Shown here: positions 7,644 through 41,112 of the stretch, piece by piece
Layout: every line of letters starts with the position of its first letter
Numbering within the stretch: the first letter of the stretch is position 1
Assembly: GCF_900111275.1 (NCBI RefSeq)
Contig: NZ_FOGR01000004.1
Coordinates: 248,001 to 312,000, forward strand
Source of the DNA: Rhizobium sp. NFR03
GTDB lineage: Bacteria > Pseudomonadota > Alphaproteobacteria > Rhizobiales > Rhizobiaceae
Direction: 5' to 3'
Length of the DNA: 64,000 bases
Program-made: the position numbers and the translations under genes
Notes under the pieces: model-generated
Seen by the model: only the letters and a program-made list of their open reading frames with translations
What the model was told of the DNA's origin: nothing
Database searches by the model: none

Positions 7644-7671
7644 TCGAAGCGCGTTCGGATGGCAACTTTCG

Positions 7672-8055: not shown

Positions 8056-8100
8056 GCTGTCACTCCAGTCGGCAGGTGTTTCGGTCTGTGCAAGATTCAT

Positions 8101-8125: not shown

Positions 8126-8204
8126 AAAGCCGGTGAGAATCGCGGCAACCCGGGCGCTGTTTGTAGCCAAACGCATACCCAACCTTCATGTTTTCCTAAT
8201 GTCT

Positions 8205-8230
8205 GGAACTTGTTGTGAAATCTTGCGTTC
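8205..8230 (+). promoter_or_regulatory. EcfG (general stress response) promoter
   Basis: GGAAC at 8205-8209, a 16-bp spacer, then CGTTC at 8226-8230. This is an exact match to the -35/-10 pair of the alphaproteobacterial general-stress sigma factor EcfG. It lies about 48 bp before the start codon of the membrane protein at 8278. Confidence 0.75.
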
Positions 8231-8277
8231 TTTGACCACTCGCACGTTTGCGATACGCTCCAAAGGACCCGATCATC

Positions 8278-9174: not shown

Positions 9175-9196
9175 GCCCAGCTAGAGACCAGCACGG

Positions 9197-9230
9197 AAAG
9201 GCCGTCAGTCGAAAGACTGGCGGCCTTTTT
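9197..9230 (+). terminator. Rho-independent terminator
   Basis: A 14-bp stem (9197-9210 with 9215-9228, one G-T pair) closes a GAAA tetraloop and is followed by a short T run. It ends the membrane-protein transcript. It sits just before the 3' end of the convergent kinase gene. Confidence 0.9.
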
Positions 9231-9242
9231 CGTCGCAACCTA

Positions 9243-13755: not shown

Positions 13756-15273
13756 CTACACGGTTGCTACATCGATCTCCATCATCAGGCGGCGTGTGGC
13801 TTCGAGGTCCTGCCCGAGGGGCCGGTCGTCGGCATAGAGAGGTATGGTGCGGCGCAGATGGTGATGAAGGCTTTCGGTGCCGGGCGCGCGGTTGCCGGAG
13901 ACCGCCGTTCCAGCGGCGCCCGCATCGACGATAAGGTCATGCGCCTGGGCGGCTGAGACGTATTCGATGGCGAGGATCTGTTCGGCATTGTCGAGGATGG
14001 CGAGAAGCTTGTTTGCGGCAGCGGTCGGGTGGGCCAGAAAGTCCTCCTGATTGCCGGAGGTCAGGCCGCCATCGAGGCTCGCGGGCGAAGCCAGCCGGCG
14101 GCTCTCGGCGGCGAGCGCCGCGGCGGTGTATTGGGCGATCATGAAGCCTGAACCCGCGCCGGGATCTGTTGCAAGGAAGGGCGGCAGGCCGCTGACGAGC
14201 GGGTTGACGAGGCGGTCGATCCGTCGCTCCGATATTGCGGACACCTGCGCAATCGCGACGGCGAGGCTGTCGAGCGCCTGCGCCAGCGCGGGTGCGACGG
14301 CATGGGCTTGCGAGAACACGAGCGGCGCGTCCGGTGTGCCGGCAACGGCCGGGTTATCGGTAACAGAGGCAAGCTCGCGATCGAGGACGGCGGCAGCGAC
14401 GTCGAAGACATCACGCGCCGCGCCATGGACATGGGGTACAGCGCGCAGGCTGAGCGCATCCTGGGTGCGCTTGCCCCGAGCGGCCGCGATCAGTCCGCTT
14501 CCCGCCAGCAGCCTGCGCAGCGTCGTGCCGACCGCTAAAAGCCCCGGCGACGGACGGAGCGCCAGTACGTCGGCGTCGAAGGCGGTCATCTGCGCACCCA
14601 GCGCTTCCAGCGTCAGGGCGGCGATGGCATCGGCCCAGTCGAGGAGGGCTGCCGCGCGGGAGAGCGCGAGCGCGCCGAGGCCTGTCGAGCAGGCCGTTCC
14701 GTTAACGAGGCTGAGGCCTTCCTTGGCCTCCAGCACCAGAGGCGAAAGACCAAGCATCGCCAGCGCCTCGGCGCCGGTCATGGAAACGCCGCTCACATGC
14801 GCCCTGCCCTCGCCGATGAGGACGAGCGCAATATGAGCGTTGTGCGTAAGGTAGCCCGCGGAACCGCGTGACGGGATGTCGGGAATGCAGTCTTTCTCGA
14901 GAAAGGTGCAGAGCCGGGCGACGACCTCGCCGCGAACACCGGAATGACCATGCGCCATGTTGGCAACCTGCGACGCCATGATGGCCCGCACCGCTTTTTC
15001 CTCGAGCAGCGGGCCGACGCCGCAAGCGTGGCTGAGGACGATATTGCGCGACAGGCGGCTCTGCGACGGACGATCGACCACGGTATCGGCAAGCGCGCCG
15101 ACGCCGGTGGTGATGCCATAGGCGCGCACGCCGCTCTCCACCAGGGCGCCGACGATGCTGTGCGCCGTCTCGATTCGCGCGACGGCCGCTCTCGACAGAA
15201 CCAACGAAGCGCCGTGCGCCACGCGTGCAACCTCGCGCCAGTCTAGCCGCGTTTCCAACACCACCGGATCCAT
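13756..15273 (-). CDS. Histidine/aromatic ammonia-lyase family protein lacking the MIO-forming triad
   Basis: 505 residues with the full HAL/PAL fold: AYGITTGVGAL (Tyr52), SLVNGTA (Asn191) and GNQEDF (409-411) are kept. Active lyases make the MIO electrophile from Ala-Ser-Gly in a GSVGASGDLAP segment. The corresponding stretch here (137-150) reads GSAGYLTHNAHIAL, three residues shorter and with no Ala-Ser-Gly. The usual YSLRCQPQ is ALSLRAVPH (273-281), so a second active-site tyrosine is also gone. The frame is intact, so this is not decay. It lies 2 bp after a polar amino-acid ABC operon, so it probably acts on an imported amino acid or derivative. The reaction is unknown; ordinary histidase activity is doubtful. 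Confidence 0.85.
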   Translation of the reverse strand: MDPVVLETRLDWREVARVAHGASLVLSRAAVARIETAHSIVGALVESGVRAYGITTGVGALADTVVDRPSQSRLSRNIVLSHACGVGPLLEEKAVRAIMASQVANMAHGHSGVRGEVVARLCTFLEKDCIPDIPSRGSAGYLTHNAHIALVLIGEGRAHVSGVSMTGAEALAMLGLSPLVLEAKEGLSLVNGTACSTGLGALALSRAAALLDWADAIAALTLEALGAQMTAFDADVLALRPSPGLLAVGTTLRRLLAGSGLIAAARGKRTQDALSLRAVPHVHGAARDVFDVAAAVLDRELASVTDNPAVAGTPDAPLVFSQAHAVAPALAQALDSLAVAIAQVSAISERRIDRLVNPLVSGLPPFLATDPGAGSGFMIAQYTAAALAAESRRLASPASLDGGLTSGNQEDFLAHPTAAANKLLAILDNAEQILAIEYVSAAQAHDLIVDAGAAGTAVSGNRAPGTESLHHHLRRTIPLYADDRPLGQDLEATRRLMMEIDVATV

Positions 15274-15275
15274 CG

Positions 15276-16082
15276 TCAGCCCCCGAAATTCCCGATGAAC
15301 TGGCGGAAGGCGGGCGAGGCACCATCGGTGAAAACAGTGTCAGGCGCACCGTCGCAATCGATCTCGCCGGATTTCATGAAGATCACCCGGTTCGACACGG
15401 TGCGCGCAAAGCTCATCTCGTGCGTGACGACCAGCATGGTCATGCCTTCCTCGGCAAGCGCCCGCATGACACGCAGCACTTCGCCTACCAGCTCCGGGTC
15501 CAGCGCAGAGGTCGGCTCGTCGAACAGCATCACCTTGGGCTTCATGGCGAGCGACCGGGCGATCGCCGCGCGCTGCTGCTGTCCGCCGGAGAGATGGGCC
15601 GGATAGGCATGGCGCTTGTCGGCGATGCCGACCTTTTCCAGAAGCGCCTCGGCCTCCTCGATACATTCGGCGCGTGGCCGCTTCAGAACATGCACCGGCC
15701 CCTCAATGATATTCTGCAGGATGGTCATGTGGGACCAGAGATTGAACGACTGGAACACCATGCCGAGTTCGGAGCGCATGCGATCCACCTGCCGCCTGTC
15801 CGCCGGCACCGTGCGGCCGCCGCGCTGCGTCATGGCGATCTTTTCGCCATCGACGACGATCTCGCCCGCATCGGCGATTTCCAGCATGTTGATGCAGCGC
15901 AGAAAGGTGGATTTTCCCGATCCGCTCGCCCCGAGCAACGAGATCACGTCGCCGTCCTGGGCGTCGAGCGAGATGCCGCGCAGCACCTGATGGGGGCCGA
16001 AGCTCTTGGTGATATTGCGGACGGAAAGGCGGGGGGCGCCGGCCATGGGCGTTCCGATCTGGCTGGAAGAGGTTGCGGTCAT
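15276..16082 (-). CDS. Polar amino acid ABC transporter ATPase (HisP/GlnQ type)
   Basis: 268 residues: Walker A GASGSGKST, signature LSGGQQQR, Walker B VMLFDEPTSALDPELVGE and a switch histidine in VVTHEMSFA. The segment QVDRMRSELGMVFQSFNLW is typical of the polar amino acid family. It energises the two permeases encoded just upstream, overlaps the first by 4 bp, and is followed after 2 bp by the lyase gene. This ties transport and lyase into one operon. Confidence 0.93.
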   Translation of the reverse strand: MTATSSSQIGTPMAGAPRLSVRNITKSFGPHQVLRGISLDAQDGDVISLLGASGSGKSTFLRCINMLEIADAGEIVVDGEKIAMTQRGGRTVPADRRQVDRMRSELGMVFQSFNLWSHMTILQNIIEGPVHVLKRPRAECIEEAEALLEKVGIADKRHAYPAHLSGGQQQRAAIARSLAMKPKVMLFDEPTSALDPELVGEVLRVMRALAEEGMTMLVVTHEMSFARTVSNRVIFMKSGEIDCDGAPDTVFTDGASPAFRQFIGNFGG

Positions 16083-16789
16083 TGTTGAGCTGCCGGGAAG
16101 AGCGGCGCCGTGCGGCGGTGCGGACTAAGGCGGTATTCGAGAAGCGCCAACAGCTGCAAAATCAGGAAGTTGAGAATGAGATAGATGGCAGCGGCACAGA
16201 GAAAGACCTCCATGGTGCGGTAGGTCTGCGCGATCAGCCGCTGCGCCACGCCCGTCACCTCCCAGACCGTGACGAGGCTGGCGAGCGCGGTCGATTTCAC
16301 CATCATCATCACCTCGGTCGAGTAGGCGGGCAAGGCATTGCGAAAGGCGATGGGCGCGAGAATGCGGCGCGTCAGCAGAAAGCCGGACATGCCGACCGCG
16401 CGTGCCGCCTCGATCTCCCGTGCGGGAATGGAGCGCAGGCCGAACCGGAAGATCTCGGCCGTATAACCGGCCGTGCAGAGCGACAGCGACAGGACGGCGC
16501 AAACGAAGGGCTCGCGCAGGGCCGGCCAGAGAAAGCTGTAGCGGATGAAGCCGAACTGCCCCAGCCCGTAGAAGACGAGGAACATCTGGATGAGCAGCGG
16601 CGAGCCGCGAAAGACGAAGATGTAGCCCTTGGCAAAGCCGCGCGCGACGGGATTGCCCCCGACACGCATCCAAACGACCAGGAGCGCCAGAAGGCCGCCG
16701 AAGATAACCGAGAGCGAGAACAGCGCCAGTGTCATCGGCAGGGCTGCCACCAGCGTTAGCATCGTGGAGGCCATGAAATCGAGGTCCAT
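16079..16789 (-). CDS. Polar amino acid ABC permease (HisM/ArtM type)
   Basis: 236 residues, about five membrane helices. The inner-membrane coupling motif EIEAARAVGMSGFLLTRRI and the N-terminal FVFRGSPLLIQMFLVFYGLGQ are diagnostic of the HisMQ family. It should form a heterodimer with the permease encoded 12 bp upstream. Confidence 0.92.
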   Translation of the reverse strand: MDLDFMASTMLTLVAALPMTLALFSLSVIFGGLLALLVVWMRVGGNPVARGFAKGYIFVFRGSPLLIQMFLVFYGLGQFGFIRYSFLWPALREPFVCAVLSLSLCTAGYTAEIFRFGLRSIPAREIEAARAVGMSGFLLTRRILAPIAFRNALPAYSTEVMMMVKSTALASLVTVWEVTGVAQRLIAQTYRTMEVFLCAAAIYLILNFLILQLLALLEYRLSPHRRTAPLFPAAQQ

Positions 16790-16800: not shown

Positions 16801-17523
16801 TCAGGCCTGGCCGATGCCGGCGGGCATGCTGCGATTGGCGCGGCGTTCCGCCCCGTTGAACACCCGGTCGGACAGGCTTGTGAGAACGAGATAGAGGCAG
16901 CCGCCAACGATGAAGAACAGAAAGTGCTGCCGTGTGGAGCCGGCGGCGATCTGGCTGGTGCGCATGAGGTCGGTGAGCCCGGTCACGGAGACGAGGGCGG
17001 AATCCTTCAGGCTCAGCTGCCAGACATTGCCGATGCCGGGAATGGCAAACCGCAGCACCTGCGGCGCGATGATACGGCGGAAGCGCAAGGACCGGTGCAT
17101 GCCGATTGCCTGTGCCGCCTCCAGCTCGCCCTTCGGAATGGCGAGAAAGGCACCGCGATAGACCTCCGCCTGATAGGCGCCCGAGATGATGCCGACGGCC
17201 AGCGAACCCGCCACGAAGGAGGGCATGCCGAGAAAGCCCTGATAGCCAAAGGCGGAGCCGGCGGCGGTCACGAGACTGGAGCCGCCGAAATAGACGAGAT
17301 AGATGATGAGCAGCTCCGGCACGCCGCGAAACACGGTGGTATAGGCGCTACCGACGGTGCGCGCGATGCGACTGCCGGAGAGCTTCGCCCAGGCGATGAG
17401 CGTGCCGAAGACCATGCCGATCACAAGGGCCGTGGCGGTGACGCAGAGCGTCATCAACGTGGCGATGAGGAGAAGCCCGCCCCAGCCTGTGGGGCCGAAG
17501 CCGATGGTCTGCAGGAATGCCAT
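16801..17523 (-). CDS. Polar amino acid ABC permease (HisQ/ArtQ type)
   Basis: 240 residues from the ATG at 17523. It shows the HisMQ family motifs TVFRGVPELLIIYLVYFG and GELEAAQAIGMHRSLRFRRI, with five to six membrane helices. It is the first permease gene after the binding-protein gene and is separated from it by two strong hairpins. Confidence 0.92.
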   Translation of the reverse strand: MAFLQTIGFGPTGWGGLLLIATLMTLCVTATALVIGMVFGTLIAWAKLSGSRIARTVGSAYTTVFRGVPELLIIYLVYFGGSSLVTAAGSAFGYQGFLGMPSFVAGSLAVGIISGAYQAEVYRGAFLAIPKGELEAAQAIGMHRSLRFRRIIAPQVLRFAIPGIGNVWQLSLKDSALVSVTGLTDLMRTSQIAAGSTRQHFLFFIVGGCLYLVLTSLSDRVFNGAERRANRSMPAGIGQA

Positions 17524-17550
17524 ACGCGAAAATGCCCTTCTTCCTCGCTG

Positions 17551-17635
17551 CCGAATGCGCCGGCGGGGGCGCATTCGGATGTCGATGGTTGTTCAACCCT
17601 TCGCCGCAGCGCAAACTTGTGGCTGGCTGCGGCGA
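17551..17635 (-). other. Two tandem intercistronic hairpins between binding-protein and permease genes
   Basis: An 11-bp perfect stem (17551-17561 with 17568-17578) and a 10-bp perfect stem (17601-17610 with 17626-17635) lie in the 123-bp gap. Neither is followed by a T run. Such structures in importer operons stabilise the binding-protein message and lower expression of the downstream permeases; that role is inferred here. Confidence 0.7.
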
Positions 17636-17646: not shown

Positions 17647-18498
17647 TCAGGGCGTGACGTCGGTCTTGAACCACTTCATGGAAAGCGTCTTGATGGTGCC
17701 GTCATCGAGCGCCGCCTGAATGGCCTTGTTGAACATATCGCGGAGGTCGGTATCCGCCTGACGCAGGCCGAGGCCCTCGCCGCTGCCGAAGATGGTGCCG
17801 CCGATTTCCGGACCGGTGAAGCCGAGCGTGCCGTTGGCCTTTTCGAAGGCAGAGATCAGGTAGACGGCGTCGTCGAAGACGAGATCGATACGGCCGCTTT
17901 CGAGATCCAGATCCCGCTCGGCGCCGGTCTTGTATTCCCGCACCGTAGCGACGCTGCCGAAGTTGTCATAGATGAACTTGGAGTAGACGGTGGCAGCCTG
18001 AATGCCGATCGTCTTGCCGGCAAAAGCTTCCTTGAGCGCGTCGATCTCCTTGGCAGTCGCGCCGGGATCGAGCTTGATCACCGTGCCGGTACCGGCGGCG
18101 TTCGCCAGAGGGCTGTCCTTCGCGGTCGCGAAGGCCGCGTGGGTATGGGCGTAGGGAATGGTGAAGTCGATGATCTTCTTGCGCTCTTCCGTGATCGACA
18201 GCGCATCCATGATGACGTCGTACTTGCCGGCCGTCAGTGCGGGGATCATGCCGTCCCAGTCGGATGCGACGAGCGTGCACTCGACCTTCATATGGTCGCA
18301 GAGATACTTGGCAAGCTCCGGCTCGAAGCCGCCGAGCGTGCCGTCGGGGTTGGTCAGGTTCCAGGGCGCATAGGCGCCTTCGAGCGTGATGGTGACGGTC
18401 TTCCAGTCCTTGGCGACGGCGGCCGGGGTGGTCAGCGCCATTGTGGACAGAGCCGCGAGCGCCATGGCGCTTCGAGTCAGGATCTTGGTGATGTTCAT
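17647..18498 (-). CDS. Amino acid ABC transporter substrate-binding protein (SBP family 3), exported
   Basis: 283 residues from the ATG at 18498. It has a signal peptide ending TTPAAVA and a family-3 fold: EGAYAPWNLTNPDGTLGGFEPELAKYLC, YDVIMDALSITEERKKIIDF, and a C-terminal RDMFNKAIQAALDDGTI. This class binds lysine, arginine, ornithine or histidine-like amino acids. It should deliver the lyase substrate or a related compound to the transporter. It is divergent from the HutC-type regulator. Confidence 0.92.
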   Translation of the reverse strand: MNITKILTRSAMALAALSTMALTTPAAVAKDWKTVTITLEGAYAPWNLTNPDGTLGGFEPELAKYLCDHMKVECTLVASDWDGMIPALTAGKYDVIMDALSITEERKKIIDFTIPYAHTHAAFATAKDSPLANAAGTGTVIKLDPGATAKEIDALKEAFAGKTIGIQAATVYSKFIYDNFGSVATVREYKTGAERDLDLESGRIDLVFDDAVYLISAFEKANGTLGFTGPEIGGTIFGSGEGLGLRQADTDLRDMFNKAIQAALDDGTIKTLSMKWFKTDVTP

Positions 18499-18595
18499 GG
18501 TCCGGTTCCTCTCGGAGTTTGCACGCATTCCCTTGAGCCGATCTGCGCCGGCTTTTCCGATCCGTGTTTGCCCTGAGACGGGAAAACCACGTTGT

Positions 18596-18682: not shown

Positions 18683-19453
18683 ATGAAACGCAATGGCGGC
18701 AAGTCCCCCGCTCTCAGCTGGGATGGAACGGAAGGCGATGGTGCGCCGCTCTATGCCGGGGTCAAGCAGATGATCCTCGGGCGCATCCAGAGCGGCGAAT
18801 GGCCGCCGCGCCATCGCGTGCCGTCCGAAAACGAACTGGTCTCCGAACTCGGCGTCAGCAAGATGACCGCAAACCGTGCGCTGCGCGAACTGGCGAGCGA
18901 AGGGGAACTCGTGCGCATTCAGGGCGTCGGTTCGTTCGTTGCGGAGCGCAAAGGCTATTCCGAACTGTTCGAGGTGCGCAACATCGCAGATGAGATCAAG
19001 GCGCGCGGTCATCTGCATGAGGCTGAGGTGATCGTGCTCACGCGCGAGCAGGCTTCGCCGGACGTTGCGGACGGACTTGACCTGCCCATCGGCGCCGAGG
19101 TGTTCCACTCGCTCATCGTGCACAGCGAAAACGGCGTTCCCGTGCAGATCGAGGATCGCTTCGTCAATCCCGAGATGGCCCCGGACTATCTGGCGCAGGA
19201 CTTCACGCTGGAAACTCCGAACTCCTACCTGACGACCGCGGCACCGCTCAGCGGCTCCGAGCATGTGGTCGAAGCAGCCATGCCGCAGGCGTGGGAGTGC
19301 AAGCTGCTCGTCATCCTGCCATCGGAGCCCTGCCTCACCATCCGCCGCCGCACATGGTCTTTCCAGAATACCGTCTCGCTCGCCCGCCTCGTCTACCCCG
19401 CCAGTCGCTATCGGCTGGAGTCTCGCAGCGGCAAGATCGGAGCAGAGAGCTAA
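18683..19453 (+). CDS. GntR-family regulator, HutC/UTRA subfamily
   Basis: 256 residues. The winged helix (about 25-95, with RVPSENELVSELGVSKMTANRALREL) is followed by a UTRA ligand domain ending LTIRRRTWSFQNTVSLARLVYPASRYRLESR, a characteristic HutC-type end. HutC represses histidine-use genes and is released by urocanate. Here it is divergent from an amino-acid transporter plus a non-canonical lyase, so the inducer may be that lyase's product or substrate. The start is the ATG that gives the normal N-terminus; the ribosome site is weak. Confidence 0.88.
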   Translation: MKRNGGKSPALSWDGTEGDGAPLYAGVKQMILGRIQSGEWPPRHRVPSENELVSELGVSKMTANRALRELASEGELVRIQGVGSFVAERKGYSELFEVRNIADEIKARGHLHEAEVIVLTREQASPDVADGLDLPIGAEVFHSLIVHSENGVPVQIEDRFVNPEMAPDYLAQDFTLETPNSYLTTAAPLSGSEHVVEAAMPQAWECKLLVILPSEPCLTIRRRTWSFQNTVSLARLVYPASRYRLESRSGKIGAES

Positions 19454-20369: not shown

Positions 20370-21359
20370 TCACGCGATCCCAGAACGCGCTCCCATCCCC
20401 TTGTGCCGGAACGCGCCCGGCGGTTGCCCGAGGATAGCCTTGCAGGCGCGGGAAAAGTGGCTGGCGCTGGAAAAGCCCGTTGCGAAGGCGATACTGGAAA
20501 GGGAGAGCGAGCTCTGTTCCAGCAGGCGCCGCGCATGGGTCAGGCGGATCAGGCGGTAGGTTTCGAGGAAGCCACGGCCGAGCTCTTGCGCAAACAGGCG
20601 ATCGAGGTGGCGCGGACTGACGCCGGCAAGCCGCGCAAGCGTTGCCCGGTCGAGCGGCTGCTCGATGGCTGTTTCCATCGTCTCCAGCACCGTCAGAAGT
20701 GCTGCATGATGTGTCCCGAACCGTTCGGCAGCGGAACCGCGCTGCGAAGCCGTCGGCTCCGCCACGGCCGTGTGGAGGTACCAGTCGCTGACACGGCGGG
20801 CGAAGTCCGCACCCATCCGCTCCGAGATCATCCTGTGCATCATGTCCAGCGGCGCGACGCCGCCCCCGCACGTGACGCGGTCGCCCGTAATGACATATCG
20901 AGCCTGCCGGGGCTGAAGATGCGGAAACGCCTCCCGGAAAATAGCCGCGTGTTCCCAATGCAGAGTGAAATCGCGATTTTCGAGAAGCCCGGCGGCGGCA
21001 AGGACATAGGCGCCGCTGGAAATGCCACCGATGCGGATGCCCTGACGGGCATAGCGACGCAGTGCCGCGTAGAGACCGCCCGGATCCCCCCAGTCGACCA
21101 CATTGCCGCCGGCGCAGACGAAGATCGTGTGGCAGCCGGCACCGCTTTCGCCAAGATCGGCACAATCCACCGATATGCCAGAGGAACTGCGCACCGGCCC
21201 GCCGCCCGGTGAGAGCATCACGGGCTCGTAAAGCGGCAAGCCAGCCAGCATATTGGCCGCGCGCAGGGGTTCGGTCGCCGACGCATAGGACATCAGCGCG
21301 AAGTTCGGCATCAATATGAAGCCCATGCGCTGGAGCGCGCGTGTATCCAAATGTGGCAT
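20370..21359 (-). CDS. GlxA-family regulator: GATase1-like sensor plus AraC DNA-binding domain
   Basis: 329 residues. The first about 195 form a DJ-1/PfpI-like (class I amidotransferase-like) domain, with FVCAGGNVVDW and GGISSGAYVLAAAGLL. The last about 95 are two AraC helix-turn-helix units (LARLAGVSPRHLDRLF and AFATGFSSASHFSRACKA). Pseudomonas GbdR and SouR, which control dimethylglycine and sarcosine breakdown, have the same build. It is divergent from the mgd genes with 96 bp between starts, so it is their likely activator. The ligand (N-methylglutamate, sarcosine or similar) is not known. Confidence 0.9.
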   Translation of the reverse strand: MPHLDTRALQRMGFILMPNFALMSYASATEPLRAANMLAGLPLYEPVMLSPGGGPVRSSSGISVDCADLGESGAGCHTIFVCAGGNVVDWGDPGGLYAALRRYARQGIRIGGISSGAYVLAAAGLLENRDFTLHWEHAAIFREAFPHLQPRQARYVITGDRVTCGGGVAPLDMMHRMISERMGADFARRVSDWYLHTAVAEPTASQRGSAAERFGTHHAALLTVLETMETAIEQPLDRATLARLAGVSPRHLDRLFAQELGRGFLETYRLIRLTHARRLLEQSSLSLSSIAFATGFSSASHFSRACKAILGQPPGAFRHKGMGARSGIA

Positions 21360-21455
21360 GACCGAAAACTACATCAATCTGTCCTATAGATGCAATCGTC
21401 GATGCGGACGCTGATCTATCCTCAGGTCACGATTGACCGGCACAACGGCACCGAC

Positions 21456-22706
21456 ATGCGTTACTCCGCCCTCTCCCTTCTGAAGAACGGTCTTCGCGGC
21501 AACAAGGATTGGACGCCGGCCTGGCGCCAGCCAGAGCCGAAGGCGCACTATGACGTGATCATCGTCGGCGGTGGCGGCCACGGGCTGGCAACCGCCTATT
21601 ATCTCGCGAAGACGTTCGGCATCACGAATGTCGCGGTGCTGGAGAAGGGCTATATCGGATCCGGCAATGTCGGCCGCAACACGACGATCATCCGCTCCAA
21701 CTACCTGCTGCCCGGCAACAATCCGTTCTACGAGCTGTCCATGAAGCTCTGGGAAGGCCTGGAGCAGGATTTCAACTTCAATGCCATGGTCTCGCAGCGC
21801 GGCGTGCTCAATCTGTTTCATTCCGATGCCCAGCGCGATGCCTATACGCGGCGCGGCAACGCGATGTTGCTGCATGGCGTCGATGCGCAACTGCTCGACC
21901 GCGCGGCGGTACGGCAGATGCTGCCTTTCCTCGACTACCACAATGCACGGTTTCCCATTCAGGGCGGCCTTTTGCAGAAGCGCGGCGGCACGGTGCGCCA
22001 CGATGCCGTGGCTTGGGGATATGCGCGCGGTGCCGACCAGCGTGGCGTCGATATCATCCAGAATTGCGAGGTCACCGGCATCCGCCGCGAGAACGGCCTC
22101 GTCACCGGCGTCGAGACCAGCCGTGGCTTCATCGGCTGCGGCAAGCTCGGACTTACGGCCGCTGGCAATTCCTCACGCGTGGCCGAGATGGCGGGCATCA
22201 AGCTGCCGATCGAGAGCCATGTGCTTCAGGCCTTCGTATCGGAAGGCCTCAAACCTTTCATCGACGGCGTCGTGACCTTCGGGGCCGGACATTTCTACGT
22301 GTCGCAGTCCGACAAGGGCGGCTTGGTCTTCGGCGGCGATATCGATGGCTACAACTCCTATGCCCAGCGCGGCAATCTCGCGACCGTCGAGCATGTCGCG
22401 GAAGCCGGCAAGGCGATGATCCCGTCGCTCTCGCGCGTCCGGGTGCTGCGCTCCTGGGGCGGCATCATGGACATGTCGATGGACGGATCGCCGATCATCG
22501 ACCGTACGCATCTCGAAAATCTCTATCTCAATGCCGGCTGGTGCTATGGCGGCTTCAAGGCGACGCCTGCCTCCGGCTTCTGCTTTGCCCATCTTCTGGC
22601 AAAGGGCGTCTCGCACGACACCACGCGACAGATGCGGCTCGACCGGTTCGAGCGCGGATATCTCATCGACGAAAAAGGCCAGGGCGCGCAGCCCAACCTT
22701 CACTGA
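21456..22706 (+). CDS. mgdA: N-methylglutamate dehydrogenase subunit A (SoxB-like FAD subunit)
   Basis: 416 residues, the size of heterotetrameric sarcosine oxidase beta. The FAD-binding start is DVIIVGGGGHGLATAYYLAK. NVGRNTTIIRSNYL, HFYVSQSDKGGLVFGGDIDGY and AGWCYGGFKATPASG are family blocks. It carries the catalytic FAD that oxidises an N-methyl amino acid. By sequence alone sarcosine oxidase is possible. I favour N-methylglutamate because gmaS and mgsABC, which make N-methylglutamate, are encoded just downstream. The start at 21456 gives the family N-terminus (MRYSALSLLKNGL) but lacks a clear ribosome site; an in-frame ATG at 21402 is an alternative. Confidence 0.88.
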   Translation: MRYSALSLLKNGLRGNKDWTPAWRQPEPKAHYDVIIVGGGGHGLATAYYLAKTFGITNVAVLEKGYIGSGNVGRNTTIIRSNYLLPGNNPFYELSMKLWEGLEQDFNFNAMVSQRGVLNLFHSDAQRDAYTRRGNAMLLHGVDAQLLDRAAVRQMLPFLDYHNARFPIQGGLLQKRGGTVRHDAVAWGYARGADQRGVDIIQNCEVTGIRRENGLVTGVETSRGFIGCGKLGLTAAGNSSRVAEMAGIKLPIESHVLQAFVSEGLKPFIDGVVTFGAGHFYVSQSDKGGLVFGGDIDGYNSYAQRGNLATVEHVAEAGKAMIPSLSRVRVLRSWGGIMDMSMDGSPIIDRTHLENLYLNAGWCYGGFKATPASGFCFAHLLAKGVSHDTTRQMRLDRFERGYLIDEKGQGAQPNLH

Positions 22707-23008: not shown

Positions 23009-25968
23009 CGCCCTATCGCCTTCCGGCCGGCGGGCTCATCGACCGGCGGACGCCACTGTCCTTCACCTTCGACGGAAAGCCACTGACGGGTTTCGCGGGC
23101 GACAGCCTCGCCTCCGCCTTGCTCGGCAATGGTCGCCTCCTCCTCGGCCGCAGCTTCAAGTACCACCGGCCGCGCGGCATCCTCACCGCTGGTGCTGCCG
23201 AGCCGAACGCATTGATGACGATCGGTACAGGCGGTCGAACCGAAGCCAATACCCGTGCCACGATGCAGGAACTTTATGCGGGGCTGGAGGCACGCAGCCA
23301 GAGCCGCTGGCCATCGCTTGCTTTCGACATCGGCGCGCTGAACGGCCTTCTCTCGCCCTTTCTTGGCGCGGGCTTCTATTACAAGACCTTCATGTGGCCG
23401 GCGCCCTTGTGGGAGAAACTCTACGAGCCCTTTATCCGCAAGGCTGCCGGACTTGGCACGGCGAGCTACACGGCAGACCCGGATACCTATGAGAAATGCT
23501 GGGCGCATTGCGACCTTCTCGTCATCGGCTCCGGCCCGGCCGGCCTCGCGGCAGCGCTGACGGCCGGGCGCGCGGGCGCCCGGGTCATTCTTGTCGAAGA
23601 GCATGCGGCGGCCGGTGGCATGCTCCTGTCCGAGACGGCGCAGATCGACGGAAAGCCAGCGCAGGATTTCGTCGCGCAGACGATGGCGGAACTGGCGTCG
23701 CTTGCGAATGTGACGATGCTGCTGCGGACAACCGCGTTTGGCTGGTACGACGGCAATGTCTTCGGAGCCATCGAGCGCGTGCAGAAGCATGTGCCGGTGC
23801 CCCTCGCAGCACGAGCAGTGGAACGCCTCTGGCGCATCGTGGCAAAAAAGGCGCTGCTGGCGACCGGTGCGGAGGAGCGACCGCTCGTCTTCGGCGGCAA
23901 CGATATTCCGGGCGTCATGATGGCGGGTGCCATGCGCACCTATCTGAACCGCTATGGCGTTGCGCCCGGCCGGCAGGTTGCCATCTTCACCACCAATGAC
24001 AGTGGCTATGCGCTGGCGACCGATCTGGAAGCGCACGGCATCGTGCCCGAAATCATCGTCGACAGTCGAGCTGACGCGGCGTTTCCCTATCAGGGCAAGG
24101 CACGCGTCGTCACGGGTGCCGTCGTCTCGGATGCCGCGGGCGGCAAGGCACTCTCCTCCATCACGGTGCTTCGGAACGGGGAGACGGAAACCGTGGCGGT
24201 GGATGCGCTCGCCATGGCGGGCGGCTTCAGCCCGATCATCCACCTCGCCTGCCATCGCGGGGCCAAGCCGCTATGGTCGGACGCACAGTCCGCCTTCCTT
24301 GCGCCTGGCAATCTCGTCGGCCTCGATCTTGCCGGTTCCGTCGCCACCACGTCAGGCATCGCCGCCTGTTTTGAGGACGGGGCGCGAAAAGCCATGGCTC
24401 TTCTGGACGAGATATCCGTCCACACCACCCCGGCAGCCCCGATTGCCGTCGAGGGTGACATCGTCTCGCCCCCTGCCCGGCCGCTCTGGACCGTGCCCGG
24501 CGTCAAGGGCAAGGCCTTCGTCGATTTCCAGAACGACGTGCACCGGCGCGATCTCGATCTCGCCGTTCAGGAGGGCTACGGCCATGTGGAGCTGGCCAAG
24601 CGCTATACGACCAACGGCATGGCGACCGATCAGGGCAAGCTGTCGAACGTCAATGCCATCGGCCTTCTGGCGGAGGCGCGTGGCGTTTCTCCGGATGATG
24701 TCGGCACGACGACCTTCCGGCCGTTCTACACGCCGGTGTCCTTCGGTGCGCTGGCGGGTGCCTCTCACGGCCATGACTTCCAGCCCGTTCGCCGCTCGCC
24801 CCTGCATGACTGGGCGCGCAGGCTCGGCGCTACCTTCGTCGAGACCGGGCTTTGGTACCGTTCGTCCTTCTTCCCGCGCCCCGGTGAAACGACATGGCGC
24901 GAGAGCGTGGATCGCGAAGTGCTGAACGTGCGCGCCCATGCAGGGCTGTGCGACGTCTCGATGCTCGGCAAGATCGAGATCTGCGGCAGGGATGCCGCGG
25001 AGTTTCTCAATCGCGTTTATTCGAATGCCTTCCTGAAGCTGCCGGTCGGGAAGGCACGCTATGGTCTGATGCTACGCGAGGACGGGATGATCTATGACGA
25101 TGGCACGACGAGCCGTCTGTCGGAGAACCACTATTTCATGACGACCACGACGGCATACGCCGCCGGGGTGATGAACCATCTTGAGTTCTGCGCGCAGGTT
25201 CTGTGGCCGGATCTCGATGTGCGGCTCGCCTCCTCCACCGACCAGTGGGCGCAGATGGCGATCGCGGGACCGAAGGCGCGTCGCATCCTGCAGACCATCG
25301 TGGACGCGGACCTGTCCAACGATGCCTTCCCCTTCCTTGCCGCCCGCGAGGTCTCGCTCTTCGGCGGCGCTCTGCATGGACGCCTGTTCCGCATCTCGTT
25401 CTCGGGAGAACTGGCCTACGAACTCGCCGTGCCCGCCGGCTATGGCGAGAGCGTCGCCGAAGCGCTGATGGACGCCGGCGCACTGCACGGCATCCAGCCC
25501 TATGGCGTGGAGGCGCTGAGTGTGCTGCGCATCGAGAAGGGACACGTCACCCATAACGAGATCAACGGTACGGCAACGGCGGGCGATCTCGGCTTCGGCA
25601 AGATGGTCTCCGCCACGAAGCCTGACTTCATCGGCAAGGCCATGGTCGGGCGCCCGGGTCTTGTGGATCCCGAGCGCGCCCAACTCGTGGGTGTTCGGCC
25701 GCTCGATCCCGAGACCTCGTTCCGCACCGGGTCCCATATTCTTGCGCTGAACGCCGAAGCCACTCTCGAAAACGACCAGGGCTATGTCACATCGAGCGCA
25801 TATTCACCCCACATCGGATCGACCATCGGTCTTGCGCTCGTCAAGCGTGGCGCATCGCGCCACGGCGAGACGGTGACGATCTGGAATGGCATCCGCAATG
25901 AATTCACGCCCGGCCGCCTGTGCGATCCGGTCTTTTTCGATCCGGAAAACGAGAAGCTTCATGTCTGA
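23005..25968 (+). CDS. mgdC: N-methylglutamate dehydrogenase subunit C (SoxA-like alpha subunit)
   Basis: 987 residues. The N-terminal part resembles a ferredoxin fold (LTGFAGDSLASALLGNG, SFKYHRPRGI). A dinucleotide-binding oxidoreductase core follows (LLVIGSGPAGLAAALTAGRAGA). The C-terminal about 380 residues are a GcvT/folate-binding module (DVSMLGKIEICG, DGMIYDDGTTSRLS, FSGELAYELAVPAGYGE). This module accepts the methylene group on tetrahydrofolate, so the carbon is captured rather than released as formaldehyde. The length is normal for the family. Confidence 0.9.
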   Translation: MTPYRLPAGGLIDRRTPLSFTFDGKPLTGFAGDSLASALLGNGRLLLGRSFKYHRPRGILTAGAAEPNALMTIGTGGRTEANTRATMQELYAGLEARSQSRWPSLAFDIGALNGLLSPFLGAGFYYKTFMWPAPLWEKLYEPFIRKAAGLGTASYTADPDTYEKCWAHCDLLVIGSGPAGLAAALTAGRAGARVILVEEHAAAGGMLLSETAQIDGKPAQDFVAQTMAELASLANVTMLLRTTAFGWYDGNVFGAIERVQKHVPVPLAARAVERLWRIVAKKALLATGAEERPLVFGGNDIPGVMMAGAMRTYLNRYGVAPGRQVAIFTTNDSGYALATDLEAHGIVPEIIVDSRADAAFPYQGKARVVTGAVVSDAAGGKALSSITVLRNGETETVAVDALAMAGGFSPIIHLACHRGAKPLWSDAQSAFLAPGNLVGLDLAGSVATTSGIAACFEDGARKAMALLDEISVHTTPAAPIAVEGDIVSPPARPLWTVPGVKGKAFVDFQNDVHRRDLDLAVQEGYGHVELAKRYTTNGMATDQGKLSNVNAIGLLAEARGVSPDDVGTTTFRPFYTPVSFGALAGASHGHDFQPVRRSPLHDWARRLGATFVETGLWYRSSFFPRPGETTWRESVDREVLNVRAHAGLCDVSMLGKIEICGRDAAEFLNRVYSNAFLKLPVGKARYGLMLREDGMIYDDGTTSRLSENHYFMTTTTAYAAGVMNHLEFCAQVLWPDLDVRLASSTDQWAQMAIAGPKARRILQTIVDADLSNDAFPFLAAREVSLFGGALHGRLFRISFSGELAYELAVPAGYGESVAEALMDAGALHGIQPYGVEALSVLRIEKGHVTHNEINGTATAGDLGFGKMVSATKPDFIGKAMVGRPGLVDPERAQLVGVRPLDPETSFRTGSHILALNAEATLENDQGYVTSSAYSPHIGSTIGLALVKRGASRHGETVTIWNGIRNEFTPGRLCDPVFFDPENEKLHV

Positions 25969-26500
25969 TTTTCGTCTCACTCAGCAGGCCGCACTCAAAG
26001 GCTGCACACGCCTCGTCAGCCGGGCGATCATGCTCGAGGCGCTGCCGGAGGGGCATGTGATCCAGGTGCTGGGTAAGCCCGGCGATCCTCATCTCACGGC
26101 GCGGCTCGAGGCGATGTCGGATGGCTCGCCGCATGCCGTGCGCGCCGCAGGTCCCGGTCAGTGCTTCATCGTCGGCGACCGGACAAAGACGCATGCCGAA
26201 CTTGCAGATCTCTCAGCGAGCCTTCAGCCGGAGGCCTTCGGTGTGGATCAGAGCGCTGGCCGCGTCCGTATTCGCGCCGCCGGCCCGATGGTCGAGCCTA
26301 TGCTGGCCAAGGGTACGGCTGTCGATCTCTCGCTGTCGAACTTTCCTGTAGGACACGCCACGACGGCGCTTATCGGCCACATCGCCGCTCACCTGACCCG
26401 CACGGGGGATGATACATTCGAGATCATGGTCCTGCGCGGCTTTGCCCAGAGCCTGTGGGACGATCTCGCCCGCATGAGCGCGGAGTTTCTGGAAGACTGA
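25961..26500 (+). CDS. mgdD: N-methylglutamate dehydrogenase subunit D (SoxG-like gamma subunit)
   Basis: 179 residues, typical of the sarcosine oxidase gamma family, with the block GPGQCFIVGDR in the middle and VLRGFAQSLWDDLARMSAEF at the end. It overlaps mgdC by 8 bp and completes the B-D-A-G gene order seen both in sox operons and in mgdABCD operons. It is a structural, folate-module-like subunit. Confidence 0.88.
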   Translation: MSDFRLTQQAALKGCTRLVSRAIMLEALPEGHVIQVLGKPGDPHLTARLEAMSDGSPHAVRAAGPGQCFIVGDRTKTHAELADLSASLQPEAFGVDQSAGRVRIRAAGPMVEPMLAKGTAVDLSLSNFPVGHATTALIGHIAAHLTRTGDDTFEIMVLRGFAQSLWDDLARMSAEFLED

Positions 26501-35844: not shown

Positions 35845-36447
35845 ATGCAGCCTTCCCCTATCAAAAGCCGGCCCCTCTACGGCACCCTCGCTCCGGTTGC
35901 CCACGCCATGCGGCACATCGCCATTGCCGAAGGTGAAGGCGCGTCCGCCGTGATCGAAGCCTTCGGCGATCACGAGGCCCTGTCCCGCACAACCATCCTC
36001 TTTTCACCCGCGCCGTACCGCACCGATCGCACGCAGGAGACGTTTCTGGCGTCATTGTCCTGCGAGGCGCTCAGCGTCGCATCAAGTGCCGAGGATTTGC
36101 TCGGCGAACTCGTGACGTTATTATCTACGGCGACCATGGGCACCCGGCTCTATGTCAGCGGCAGCGAGGACTTCATCGGTCGCGTTACCAGCGAGGCCCT
36201 GCATCAGGGCATCGATGCGGACGCCATCCAGACCGAACATCGTGGGGCTCCGACCCGCCGCGTCCAGTGCGTTCACTGCAAGGGCTTCACCGACGGCGTA
36301 TCGGCAAGCCCCGCCACCTGCGCCCATTGCGGTATCCACCTTCTGGTGCGCGATCATTATTCCCGCCGTCTCGGCGCCTTCATGGGCGTTTCCATCGATG
36401 CCGAGGCACCGGGCGACATCCCGCCGGCAGAGGCGTTCGGAGCATGA
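35845..36447 (+). CDS. dmmC: Dimethylamine monooxygenase subunit C
   Basis: 200 residues (about 21 kDa). The C-terminal third carries two cysteine pairs, CVHCKGF and CAHCG, about 20 residues apart: a four-cysteine metal site followed by HLLVRDHYSRRLGAFMGV. The DMA monooxygenase purified from Pseudomonas has three subunits, the smallest about 24 kDa. It overlaps dmmB by 4 bp. Its role in electron transfer or assembly within DmmABC is not settled. Confidence 0.85.
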   Translation: MQPSPIKSRPLYGTLAPVAHAMRHIAIAEGEGASAVIEAFGDHEALSRTTILFSPAPYRTDRTQETFLASLSCEALSVASSAEDLLGELVTLLSTATMGTRLYVSGSEDFIGRVTSEALHQGIDADAIQTEHRGAPTRRVQCVHCKGFTDGVSASPATCAHCGIHLLVRDHYSRRLGAFMGVSIDAEAPGDIPPAEAFGA

Positions 36448-37409
36448 GCGGCGGCGTGCAGTTTCCCGTGCGGGTCATCGAGACAGAAGCGATATCGCCG
36501 ACCGTCAAGCGCCTGCGGCTGGCCCCGCGCGACGGGCAGGCCCTGCCGGCCTATTCGGCCGGTTCCCATACGGTGCTGACGATCGATGGCGGCAGCCGGC
36601 TGATCCGCAACGCATACTCTCTCCTTGGCTCGACGCTTGCCGGCGGCGCGGCCTATGAGGTCGCAGTACAGCGCAGTCCGCAGTCGCGCGGCGGCTCCGC
36701 CTTCATCCATGATCACCTGACCGTGGGAGCAGACCTCAGCCTGTCGGCGCCGATCAACCTCTTCGCCCTGAACCGCACCGCCCGCCGGCATATCCTGGTT
36801 GCCGGTGGCATCGGCATCACGCCCATTGCGGCCATGGCAGCGGAACTCGATGCCCTCGCTCTGCCCTTCGAGCTTCATTATGCAATGCGCGATACAGCAA
36901 GCGGCGCATTCGCCGCCGAGCTTGCGGCGCGACACGGCGACAATCTCCACCTCTATGTCAGCGAGCGGCAGGAGCGGCTTTCGGTCCGCGATATCCTCGC
37001 CCGCCAGCCGCTCGGCACGCATCTCTATGTCTGCGGACCCGAGCGCATGATCGAGGGCGTGATGACGGACGCACGCATGGCGGGATGGCCGGAAAGCGCG
37101 CTGCATGCCGAGCGGTTTCTGGCGCCTGAGGGCGGAGAGCCCTTCGCACTCCGGCTTGCCCGCTCCGGCATTTCCACCGTTGTGGGTGAGCACGAGACAT
37201 TGCTGGAGGCCATCGAGGCGGCCGGTGTGGATGCCCCCTATCTCTGCCGGGGCGGCGCGTGCGGACAGTGCGAGACGCGGGTGCTCGCCGCCGACGGCCA
37301 CCTGCTGCATGCCGACCATTATCTGACGGACGGCCAGAAATCCCGCGGCGAAACCATCATGACCTGCGTCTCGCGGCTGCGCGGCCGCGAGCTCGTGCTC
37401 GACCTGTGA
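36444..37409 (+). CDS. dmmB: Dimethylamine monooxygenase subunit B, flavin/2Fe-2S reductase
   Basis: 321 residues with the phthalate-dioxygenase-reductase layout. A flavin barrel (about 1-105, RNAYSLLG) is followed by an NAD-binding domain (HILVAGGIGITPIAAMA, HLYVCGPERMI). A C-terminal plant-type ferredoxin domain has CRGGACGQCETRV and a fourth cysteine in TIMTCVSR. It passes electrons from NAD(P)H to the haem subunit DmmA. It overlaps dmmC (ATGA) and lies 12 bp before dmmA. Confidence 0.92.
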   Translation: MSGGVQFPVRVIETEAISPTVKRLRLAPRDGQALPAYSAGSHTVLTIDGGSRLIRNAYSLLGSTLAGGAAYEVAVQRSPQSRGGSAFIHDHLTVGADLSLSAPINLFALNRTARRHILVAGGIGITPIAAMAAELDALALPFELHYAMRDTASGAFAAELAARHGDNLHLYVSERQERLSVRDILARQPLGTHLYVCGPERMIEGVMTDARMAGWPESALHAERFLAPEGGEPFALRLARSGISTVVGEHETLLEAIEAAGVDAPYLCRGGACGQCETRVLAADGHLLHADHYLTDGQKSRGETIMTCVSRLRGRELVLDL

Positions 37410-37421: not shown

Positions 37422-38462
37422 ATGACCCTTTCGTTCAATGCCGAGACCTTTCGCGACGACTACACCTTCGCCAACAGCCCGAAGGCGATCCGGGCGTTTC
37501 CCTTCCCCTTCGAGCGCGACGACTACACCTACACCGTCAACATCGAGCAGCATGTACCCGGACCGGTCCAGTCGGCGACGGAGTTTCCGATCCACATCGA
37601 CGAGCACTATGTCGCCGAGATGCAGGACCGCGCGATCACCCTCTCGCAGGATCCCCTGCGCTGCCAGTCGCTGCCGCACATGATGACGGCGGAATGGGAT
37701 CTGTTGGAACTGCTGATGACGTCGATGGCGACGCATTATCCGGAAACGTTTTCCCTGACGCGCGAGGGCGACCGCTGGCACTGGATCAACCGGCCGCTCG
37801 GTCTCGACCAGCATTTCACGTTCGGCGATGCATCGACCCTGCCGCAGGGGCCGATGGAATACATCACCCGCCAGTGCCAGGGCGATTTCTGCCTGCTCGA
37901 TCAGCGGGACGACAATCTCTGGATGGATGCGGGCATGGTGACGACGCAGGCCGACTGGTCGCTCGATTTCGACCTCGGCATGAACTTCATGGAGTGGCAC
38001 GCGCCCGTGCCGCTGGCGCACGATCTCGGCGTCTTCGAGCGGGCGCTCAAGTTCCTGCTCAACCTCCAGCAGGGCCGCCCGGTGCGGCGTCTGAACTGGA
38101 CGATGACGATCAATCCGCGCCTCGACACCAGCCCGGAGAACTACCACCGCTGGGGCATCGACAAGGCGAGCGTGACGCCGGAAAACGTCGGCGACAAGGT
38201 GCATCTGCGCGTCGAGCTGCAGGCGCTCTGGCGGCTTCCGCGCTCCAACGCCATCGTGTTCTCGATCCGCTGCTACCTCATCAAGATGGACGAGCTGGTG
38301 ACCCAGAAGAAATGGGCGCGGCGGTTCCATCGCGTGCTTGCGAGCCTGCCGCAGCCGATTGCCGACTATAAGGGCCTTGGCCGCTTCCGCGATACGACCG
38401 TCGCATGGCTGTCACGCCATGATGACGGCCTTCCCACATCCCCCGGCTTTGCGCCGGACTGA
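37422..38462 (+). CDS. dmmA: Dimethylamine monooxygenase subunit A (haem-dependent oxidative N-demethylase, DUF3445)
   Basis: 346 residues (about 40 kDa) of the DUF3445/HODM family, with KAIRAFPFPFERDDYTYTV near the start, HWINRPLGLDQHFTFGD in the middle and NYHRWGIDKASV, LRVELQALWRLPRSNAIVFSIR toward the end. Family members bind haem and oxidise dimethylamine to methylamine plus formaldehyde. It is the catalytic subunit of the complex with DmmB and DmmC. The gene order C-B-A followed by a GcvT-like gene differs from the dmmDABC order described in marine bacteria. Confidence 0.9.
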   Translation: MTLSFNAETFRDDYTFANSPKAIRAFPFPFERDDYTYTVNIEQHVPGPVQSATEFPIHIDEHYVAEMQDRAITLSQDPLRCQSLPHMMTAEWDLLELLMTSMATHYPETFSLTREGDRWHWINRPLGLDQHFTFGDASTLPQGPMEYITRQCQGDFCLLDQRDDNLWMDAGMVTTQADWSLDFDLGMNFMEWHAPVPLAHDLGVFERALKFLLNLQQGRPVRRLNWTMTINPRLDTSPENYHRWGIDKASVTPENVGDKVHLRVELQALWRLPRSNAIVFSIRCYLIKMDELVTQKKWARRFHRVLASLPQPIADYKGLGRFRDTTVAWLSRHDDGLPTSPGFAPD

Positions 38463-38519
38463 ACCGTTCACGGCATGGGCGCGAGCCCGCCCATCGATCG
38501 CCTGTTACTGGAGGACGAC

Positions 38520-39653
38520 ATGACTGCATCCTGGAGATTTTCGACCCTGGCGGACCGCCACCGGTCGCTCGGCTCGAAGCTGGAAGACTGGAGCGGGATG
38601 GGCACCGCCTGGTCCTATGATGGCGATGCCGATCTCGAATATCTGGCGATCCGCACGAAAGCGGGCCTGATGGACGTTTCCGGCCTGAAGAAGGTCCACA
38701 TTACCGGCGCCCATGCCGCCCATGTCATCGACCTCGCCACCACGCGCGACGTCGAGAAGATCTATCCCGGCAAGTCGGCCTATGCCTGCATGCTCAACGA
38801 AGCCGGCAAGTTCACCGACGACTGCATCATCTACCGCATCTCCACCAACAGCTGGATGGTGGTGCACGGCTCGGGAACGGGCCACGAGGAACTGCAGAAG
38901 GCCGCCATCGGCCGCGACGTTTCCATCCGCTTCGACGACGACCTTCATGACCTGTCGCTGCAAGGGCCGCTCGCCGTCGATTACCTCGCGCCGCACGTTC
39001 CCGGCATCCGCGATCTCCCCTATTTCCATCATCTCCAGACGCGTCTCTTCGGCCTGCCCGTGATGATCTCCCGCACCGGCTATACCGGCGAGCGCGGCTA
39101 CGAGATCTTCTGCCGTGGACAGGATGCGCCCGTCATCTGGGACCGGATTCTGGAAGAAGGCGCCGGGATGGGCATCATCCCGTGCCGCTTCACCACGCTC
39201 GATATGCTGCGGGTGGAAAGCTACTTGCTGTTCTACCCCTTCGACAATTCGCAAAAATATCCCTTTGCCGACGAAGGTCCGGGCGACACGCTCTGGGAGC
39301 TCGGCCTCGATTTCACCGTCAGCCCCGGCAAGACGGGCTTTCGCGGCGCGGAAGAACATGCGCGCCTCAAGGGACGCGAGCGCTTCCGGATCTTCGGCCT
39401 GCTTCTCGACGGCGCTGTGCCGGCCGACGAAGGCGCTCCGGTTTACCAGGACGGCCGGCAGGTGGGCGTTGCCACGTGCGGCATGGTCTCGCCGCTCACC
39501 GGAGCATCGATGGCGATCGCCCGGCTTGCGGTCGATTGCGCCGTGCCCGGCACGAAGCTCGAGGTGATGAATGCGAGCGGCGCAATGTCTGCCGCCGCCC
39601 ACGCTCTGCCCTTCGACGATCCGAAGAAGCTGAAGCGCACCGCCAAAGGCTGA
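38520..39653 (+). CDS. dmmD: Stand-alone GcvT-like aminomethyltransferase, probably DmmD
   Basis: 377 residues covering a full GcvT fold: LMDVSGLKKVHITGAHAAHVID, GKFTDDCIIYRIS (aspartate near the folate site), DLSLQGPLAVDYL, SRTGYTGERGYEIF and a C-terminal barrel with GMVSPLTGASMAIARL. A GGAGG ribosome site precedes the ATG at 38520. GcvT proteins move one-carbon units to tetrahydrofolate. Between dmmA and tmm, whose pathway steps release formaldehyde, it may load that formaldehyde on THF; this is inference. I use the dmmD name by analogy with known dmm loci, with moderate confidence. Confidence 0.75.
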   Translation: MTASWRFSTLADRHRSLGSKLEDWSGMGTAWSYDGDADLEYLAIRTKAGLMDVSGLKKVHITGAHAAHVIDLATTRDVEKIYPGKSAYACMLNEAGKFTDDCIIYRISTNSWMVVHGSGTGHEELQKAAIGRDVSIRFDDDLHDLSLQGPLAVDYLAPHVPGIRDLPYFHHLQTRLFGLPVMISRTGYTGERGYEIFCRGQDAPVIWDRILEEGAGMGIIPCRFTTLDMLRVESYLLFYPFDNSQKYPFADEGPGDTLWELGLDFTVSPGKTGFRGAEEHARLKGRERFRIFGLLLDGAVPADEGAPVYQDGRQVGVATCGMVSPLTGASMAIARLAVDCAVPGTKLEVMNASGAMSAAAHALPFDDPKKLKRTAKG

Positions 39654-41075: not shown

Positions 41076-41112
41076 TATCGGACCCGGCGAAGACCGGGAC
41101 CATGGAGGGACC

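Follow-up and report, generated by a model that had tools for sequence, protein, structure and literature searches.

The gene at positions 13756..15273 (minus strand) of a 64,000-nucleotide stretch of Rhizobium sp. NFR03 (contig NZ_FOGR01000004.1, positions 248,001 to 312,000; this whole stretch is called the window) encodes a 505-residue protein whose relatives are annotated as histidine ammonia-lyases, and which has lost the residues forming the 4-methylideneimidazole-5-one (MIO) electrophile. We propose that this protein, which has the aromatic ammonia-lyase fold, probably acts as a trimethylamine lyase independent of MIO, with hercynine as the most likely substrate. The loss of the MIO residues, the pattern of the remaining active-site residues, the clade sharing this pattern, the gene neighbourhoods of its members and the trimethylamine genes of the window are observed directly, and from them we predict the substrate, the products and the chemistry of the enzyme.

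Loss of the MIO residues in a conserved lyase

The open reading frame begins with ATG and contains no internal stop, and its product matches the aromatic amino acid lyase family PF00221 with 479.7 bits (cut-off 27.3). Its highest profile scores are with the histidase families, whose curated HutH cut-offs it misses (TIGR01225, 453.6 of 539.15; NF006871, 467.9 of 524). Residues 137-150, encoded at 14824..14865 on the minus strand (the last-printed base of the first codon is 14865), read GSAGYLTHNAHIAL, where histidases, including the lyase L002 of the same genome, read GSVGASGDLAPLAHMA. The Ala-Ser-Gly triad is thus removed by a three-residue deletion accompanied by an Asp to Tyr replacement (Tyr141, codon 14851-14853, minus strand), and the loop becomes GSAGYLTHNAH, hereafter the GYL loop. 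The DPYSLRCQPQ segment of histidases is changed to QDALSLRAVPH, and Leu274 (codon 14452..14454, minus strand) occupies the place of their catalytic tyrosine, which we take to be Tyr280 (the structure of a Y280F mutant, 1gkj, is among our Foldseek matches). Tyr52, Asn191 and the GNQED block are retained.

A first-pass annotation of the window had pointed to the deletion, the altered segment, the retained blocks and the intact frame, and had judged that the gene seems functional; the observation holds. Among the best 80 of 460 confirmed loci, the loop reads GSAGYL in 72 relatives and GSVGYL in the other eight, and Tyr52, His82, Tyr141, Asn191, Gln271, Leu274, Arg277, Tyr382 and Glu410 are invariant in all 80. 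The imidazole- and carboxylate-binding residues of histidase, presumably His83, Glu414, Arg283 and Tyr53 with these roles, are likewise retained throughout. Together with a ratio of nonsynonymous to synonymous substitutions (dN/dS) of 0.083/0.650 = 0.13 against the nearest relative, L004, these invariant residues suggest that the gene is probably functional. A sequencing or frame error as the cause of the loop is ruled out by its presence as GS[A/V]GYL in 80 of 80 relatives. The Asn of GNQED (residue 408 in the window lyase) is Leu in 77 relatives, Asn in two and Gln in one; the histidase-like Asn is kept by the window's own small group.

The two kinds of lyase are found side by side. Seventeen of the 80 loci contain a second, more distant, histidase-like lyase (defined as a second match of less than 50% to the window lyase), and among the 18 rows formed by these proteins and L002, 16 have the GSVGASGDL loop with Tyr at the place of Leu274, while the other two are cut before the loop and yet have the same Tyr. 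Further out, the GYL loop and the Leu occur together in L087 (Agrobacterium plasmid), L089 and L091 (Rhizobium/Agrobacterium), L090 (Klebsiella plasmid), L094 (Priestia), L096 (Sinorhizobium), L160 (Burkholderia) and L164 (Erwinia). Of the 398 genomes sampled across the phylum, 23 contain a match of at least 48% identity, the others among the matches listed (E value of 1e-60 or better) being at 44% or lower. From the 29 loci of this search besides the window gene (L001), the upper 22 (L098-L119) read GSxGYL, with one GSVGYI, and all have the Leu; the lower seven (L120-L126) read GSVGASGDL with Tyr. A search for the loop pattern in 151 genomes of the family gave 24 matches, of which 22 were kept after checking the peptide, G057 and G021 being dropped for a peptide other than GS[AV]GYL; the reversed control pattern matched in six genomes, and seven of the 22 kept genomes were judged on the loop peptide alone.

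On the Klebsiella plasmid pKP106-1 (L090, 1413-11295), the GYL lyase stands in a cluster with hutU, an ATP-binding cassette (ABC) importer, hutD, hutC and hutF, with transposase genes downstream. The window lyase matches 197 Klebsiella plasmid records, the loop having been read in L090 only.

Histidine-utilization genes and importers around the lyase

In the window, a HutC-type repressor gene (18683..19453, plus strand; TIGR02018, 292 bits, cut-off 220; below the cut-off of a second HutC model, NF011575, with 291 of 424) is divergent from the importer-lyase operon. The latter comprises, in order and on the minus strand, a substrate-binding protein of the polar amino-acid type (17647..18510, start codon approximate; TIGR01096, 224.7 bits, cut-off 256.35), a HisQ-like permease (16801..17574) and an ArtM/HisM-like permease (16079..16789), both below the cut-offs, a HisP-like ATPase (15276..16082; 325 bits, below the cut-off of 466) and the lyase, whose start is 2 bases from the end of the ATPase frame. 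The amino-acid ABC importer and the HutC-type regulator are as first annotated. The genome also encodes the Ala-Ser-Gly lyase L002, amid hutU, hutG and hutI. ParA/RepA-like and RepB-like genes at 11345-13593 converge on the lyase gene, and the interval from 13593 to the latter showed no repC.

The neighbourhoods of the 80 relatives were labelled by the best blastp matches to a reference set (at least 33% or at least 30% identity), rather than by curated names, and neighbours may be missing where a contig ends within the locus. On this basis, a hutC-like gene is found within about 8 kb in 66 loci, another hut gene (hutU, hutI, hutF, hutG or hutD) in 31 and the complete four-gene importer of the amino-acid type in 51; a SolA-type N-methyl amino-acid oxidase, the reference for which passes NF008425, is nearby in 34. 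A ProV-like gene is on the lyase strand in nine loci, and in seven of the 80 (L031, L032, L046, L050, L054, L055 and L070) the ProV-like ATPase is followed on one strand by hutC and the lyase. The operon of L031, annotated ProV-ProW-ProW-OpuAC-HutC, encodes ProV (291.7 bits against a cut-off of 326.6), a pair of permeases, OpuAC (165 bits) and a GntR-UTRA regulator. Among the 20 regions fetched from the 23 genomes of the phylum sample, 18 have hut-like genes, and the importer is of the ProXWV type in ten, of the amino-acid type in six and of neither type in four. Urocanase is nearby in 18 of the 80 loci and in 13 of the 20 phylum regions. L087 and L031 encode betaine-type binding proteins that are no more than 27% alike, which suggests that betaine importers were recruited on at least two occasions. 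The proximity of hut genes, the presence of HutC, which responds to urocanate (PMC8871633), and the recurrence of betaine-type importers make hercynine the simplest common substrate.

In the Pseudomonas-like genomes of L135, L137, L138, L140 and L142, the genes run in the order hutF, hutC, hutD, hutU, a ProXWV-type importer, the GYL lyase, a canonical hutH, hutI and hutG. This gene order matches the five-gene insertion described for Pseudomonas fluorescens SBW25, in which HutH1 accompanies HutXWV (PMC8871633), the correspondence being one of synteny. In L135, a cytosine/purine-type permease gene (PF02133) lies between hutU and the importer, and a gene of the same class directly follows the GYL lyase of the Erwinia plasmid locus L164 (4780-10889).

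Trimethylamine genes in the window

The expected second product would also find its consumers in the window. A trimethylamine monooxygenase gene, tmm (39720..41075, plus strand; NF058570, 832.5 bits, cut-off 675), lies 24.4 kb from the lyase and is followed by a trimethylamine N-oxide demethylase gene, tdm (41020..43509, plus strand; NF053776, 1301.7 bits, cut-off 1100), whose true start is probably somewhat downstream. Upstream of tmm, and likewise on the plus strand, one gene row encodes a DmmA-like subunit of dimethylamine monooxygenase (35845..36447; PF22290, PF22289), a ferredoxin-reductase subunit (36444..37409; Fer2, DmmA-like_N), an alpha-like subunit of haem-dependent oxidative N-demethylase (37422..38462; PF11927, 238 bits, the only match to this family found in the genome) and a GcvT-like aminomethyltransferase (38475..39653). 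Between the lyase and tmm lie the sarcosine oxidase beta subunit gene soxB (21390..22706, plus strand; TIGR01373, 729 bits, cut-off 529) and a soxG-like gamma subunit gene (25886..26500, plus strand; 134.6 bits, narrowly missing the cut-off of 143.95), as well as a gene for a GbdR-like AraC-type regulator (20370..21359, minus strand; 234.8 bits, below the cut-off of 480).

In a genome of another genus (G117, locus L148), tmm (826.9 bits), tdm (1275.2 bits), a PF11927-like gene whose product is 71% identical to that of the window, solA, the lyase, the importer and hutC are gathered within 18 kb, and in G094, a congener of the window genome (G000), some 24 kb of a single contig separates the lyase from tmm. 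The tmm gene and a GYL lyase occur together in nine of the 151 genomes of the family sample (22 with the lyase, 23 with tmm; Fisher p 0.0013, or 0.0028 when G057 and G021 are kept) and in six of the 398 of the phylum sample (23 and 29, respectively; p 0.0037). Twelve of 20 named lyase-bearing genomes from the 80 have tmm, these 20 having been chosen by hand and not drawn at random.

Placement against histidase and ergothionase

The trees were built without the loop columns and are unrooted; the quick one has 60 rows and the careful one 59, the long row L097 being left out. The phylogeny of the loop-bearing homologues, which had been suggested along with the first annotation, unites all 41 GYL rows, including one with GYI, in one group, with Shimodaira-Hasegawa-like approximate likelihood ratio (SH-aLRT) support of 88 in the quick tree and 95/89 in the careful one. 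The Ala-Ser-Gly rows form a separate group (92 and 100/100). Neither group includes the Treponema denticola ergothionase or the rows akin to it (L003, L095 and the second lyase of L147); the places of the long rows (T. denticola, L094 and L147) are unsure, and the ergothionase so placed is that of T. denticola, the Burkholderia HME13 enzyme being outside the tree sample. Leu stands at the place of Tyr280 in 41 of 41 GYL rows, in three of three ergothionase-like rows and in the L147 row, whereas the Ala-Ser-Gly rows have it in none of 15 and Tyr in all 15. The loss of the MIO residues and the replacement of Tyr280 by Leu go together, and the unrooted tree fits one or more losses.

The nearest solved fold is that of the Pseudomonas putida HutH (1gk*, 1b8f), with which the window lyase shares the histidine-binding residues and the hut neighbourhood; it differs from HutH by the lack of Ala-Ser-Gly and of Tyr280, by scores below the HutH cut-offs and by its separate group in the tree. 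With the T. denticola ergothionase (6s7j, 6s7q) it shares the fold, the absence of MIO, the Leu at Tyr280 and the retained Tyr, Arg and Glu. The ergothionase loop, on the other hand, has a one-residue deletion (SSIGE-GD) where the window lyase has one of three (GSAG---YL), the ergothionase has Lys where the window lyase has Tyr, it lies outside the GYL group, and the identity in the structure alignment is 28%. The Lys, whose role in ergothionase we take to be catalytic, is present in three of three ergothionase-like rows; Tyr replaces it in 40 of the 41 GYL rows, and this position corresponds to Tyr382 in the window lyase and in its 80 relatives. Membership in the T. denticola ergothionase group is ruled out by the loop, the Lys and the clade.

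Two other MIO-less lyases were encountered. The third lyase of the window genome, L003 (G000:C10:24246-25619), is ergothionase-like: its best solved relative is 6s7j (260 bits), its loop reads GSIGA-GD, the Lys is kept, and its gene adjoins one of the ornithine-cyclodeaminase/alanine-dehydrogenase type. The lyase of L161 (Rhizobium johnstonii 3841, pRL12; 7216-10487) has the loop GSIGA-AD, with Leu replacing Tyr280, and is a further MIO-less type; its gene is next to hutC and to the gene of a glycine-betaine binding protein, and CoA-transferase, short-chain dehydrogenase/reductase (SDR) and MaoC genes lie upstream.

An AlphaFold model of the window lyase, computed as a single chain from a 31-row alignment (mean predicted local distance difference test score (pLDDT) 87.7, predicted template modelling score (pTM) 0.90, residues 400-412 under 50), confirms the aromatic lyase fold and leaves the substrate undecided.

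Alternative substrates and functions

The strongest competitor to the hercynine proposal is a trimethylamine lyase acting on ergothioneine or ergothioneine sulfonate and giving thiourocanate or sulfourocanate, which we hold to be unlikely but worth serious consideration. A 2022 study by Yan, going by its title, reportedly concerns an ergothioneine-sulfonate catabolic pathway in Agrobacterium radiobacter, which would possibly use a GYL lyase like L087. The gene row of that locus (783-10488) combines the lyase with an amidohydrolase, a betaine importer, a molybdopterin S/N-oxide reductase and a urocanase that has diverged from the canonical one (50.6%), and this row may be an ergothioneine or ergothioneine-sulfonate cluster candidate representing an ergothioneine-type branch. 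The competitor also draws on ergothionase (6s7j), the known MIO-free enzyme of this fold, which shows that this fold can dispense with MIO if trimethylamine is the group that leaves (PMC13405746). It has against it the Tyr found in 80 of 80 members of the window family in place of the ergothionase Lys, the separation of the GYL and ergothionase-like rows in the tree, and the urocanases near the GYL lyases, which match the canonical hutU better than they match the diverged enzyme of L087; the window operon contains neither such a urocanase nor a molybdopterin reductase.

It is improbable that the substrate is another histidine derivative with a good N-alpha leaving group, such as dimethylhistidine, or an opine-like or peptide-like compound. 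The importer of the Rhizobium etli locus L163 is annotated as an octopine transporter, SolA-type N-demethylases are near 34 of the 80 copies, and peptide-type importers occur at L065 and L069; glycine-betaine-type importers nevertheless recur in the GYL clade, and trimethylamine genes are present in the window and in L148. A still smaller chance is left to a histidase that has lost its catalytic function and persists as a binding or regulatory protein: both the MIO residues and Tyr280, which histidases require, are lost, but the dN/dS of 0.13 and the invariance of Tyr52, His82, Gln271, Arg277 and Glu410 speak for an enzyme, and ergothionase carries the same double change and is active (PMC13405746). 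Least probable of all is a histidase or other ammonia lyase whose MIO is formed elsewhere or supplied otherwise, as the top scores with histidase families might suggest, given that their curated cut-offs are missed, that the loop is devoid of Ser-Gly and that the Ala-Ser-Gly lyase L002 stands amid hutU, hutG and hutI in the same genome. Nor is a shifted MIO expected, because the loop retains no Ser-Gly pair.

Of the functions first considered for this gene, the MIO-independent lyase is retained, whereas an isomerase, a hydrolase or a binding protein fits less well with the substrate-binding residues, the context of hut genes and betaine importers and the trimethylamine genes. Several observations weigh against hercynine as the substrate. 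The Fisher tests ignore common ancestry. In both samples, G000, G094 and G117 alone have the lyase and tmm on one contig, the two being on different contigs elsewhere; tmm is missing from 13 of the 22 genomes with a GYL lyase in the family sample and from 17 of the 23 in the phylum sample, and in the latter it is present in five of the six GYL genomes of the window's own order and in one of 17 (G158) outside it. The association is carried by that order. Thirteen of the 80 loci, ten of them titled Mesorhizobium, have no reference neighbour within about 8 kb, and the annotation of one of these, L058, gave nothing informative. L065 (4146-9467) has a four-gene peptide-type ABC importer upstream of its GYL lyase, and L069 (4778-9503) a fused peptide-type ATPase and an M24 (creatinase/prolidase-like) peptidase beside it; these importers fit neither histidine nor betaine uptake and slightly lower our confidence, and their lyases perhaps act on another form of the substrate. 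The window lyase scores 303 and 257 bits with histidases and 171 with the T. denticola ergothionase. The fold search on the predicted model likewise favours histidase as the nearest (P. putida enzyme 1eb4, rank 1, TM 0.91) rather than ergothionase (rank 9, TM 0.88), and the model, a monomer with low pLDDT at 400-412, is used here for the fold only.

A model for hercynine breakdown

In the model we propose, hercynine (N-alpha-trimethyl-L-histidine) would be taken up by the ABC importer encoded next to the lyase. In the active site, Arg277 would hold the carboxylate, and the imidazole would be bound and polarised by His82 and Glu410. Tyr52 or Glu410 would remove the beta proton and trimethylamine would leave directly, from a pocket reshaped for the N(CH3)3 group by Leu274, Tyr141 and Tyr382. 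Histidases depend on MIO since ammonia leaves poorly; trimethylamine leaves far more readily, and the electrophile would therefore be unnecessary. The urocanate produced would enter the normal Hut pathway and relieve the repression by HutC, while the trimethylamine would be consumed by Tmm, Tdm and Dmm.

More tentatively, at somewhat less than even chances, we extend this model to the whole GYL clade, which may represent a widespread and undescribed set of MIO-independent betaine lyases whose founding activity would be the conversion of hercynine into urocanate and trimethylamine. Such an activity would provide a second entry into the hut pathway and would explain the orphan HutH1-HutXWV module of pseudomonads, with side branches for other aromatic betaines. 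MIO would then have disappeared from this fold repeatedly, the change of Tyr280 to Leu accompanying every loss. In L089 and L091, the GYL lyase is accompanied by a UTRA regulator and an ABC importer, then by 3-hydroxyacyl-CoA dehydrogenase and enoyl-CoA hydratase genes and, in L091, also by a CoA transferase gene; these loci may be a branch for another aromatic betaine.

The gene was first presented as a candidate for an undescribed activity. It proves to be one member of a broad clade, and ergothionase already provides a known case of catalysis without MIO in this fold; the novelty is the link between the GYL clade and histidine catabolism, with a concrete prediction of the substrate. The clade is apparently uncharacterised so far in the literature searched, and the 2022 work on A. 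radiobacter may cover part of it. No report of hercynine breakdown was found in our search, which covered mostly literature outside subscription journals, including the accessible parts of PMC13405746, PMC8871633, PMC9732360, PMC9103826 and PMC11089744.

If the model is true, the proteins named histidine ammonia-lyase that have the GYL loop are misannotated trimethylamine lyases, and the GYL loop with Leu at the place of Tyr280 is a sequence rule that separates the two kinds of lyase. A missing entry into histidine breakdown would become testable, and the published puzzle of the second histidase of pseudomonads, which is dispensable for growth on histidine, could be put to a direct test. It would also reveal a new source of trimethylamine and a route by which histidine betaines are recycled in the soil and the root zone, and would provide a case of a fold that discards its built-in cofactor once the leaving group improves.

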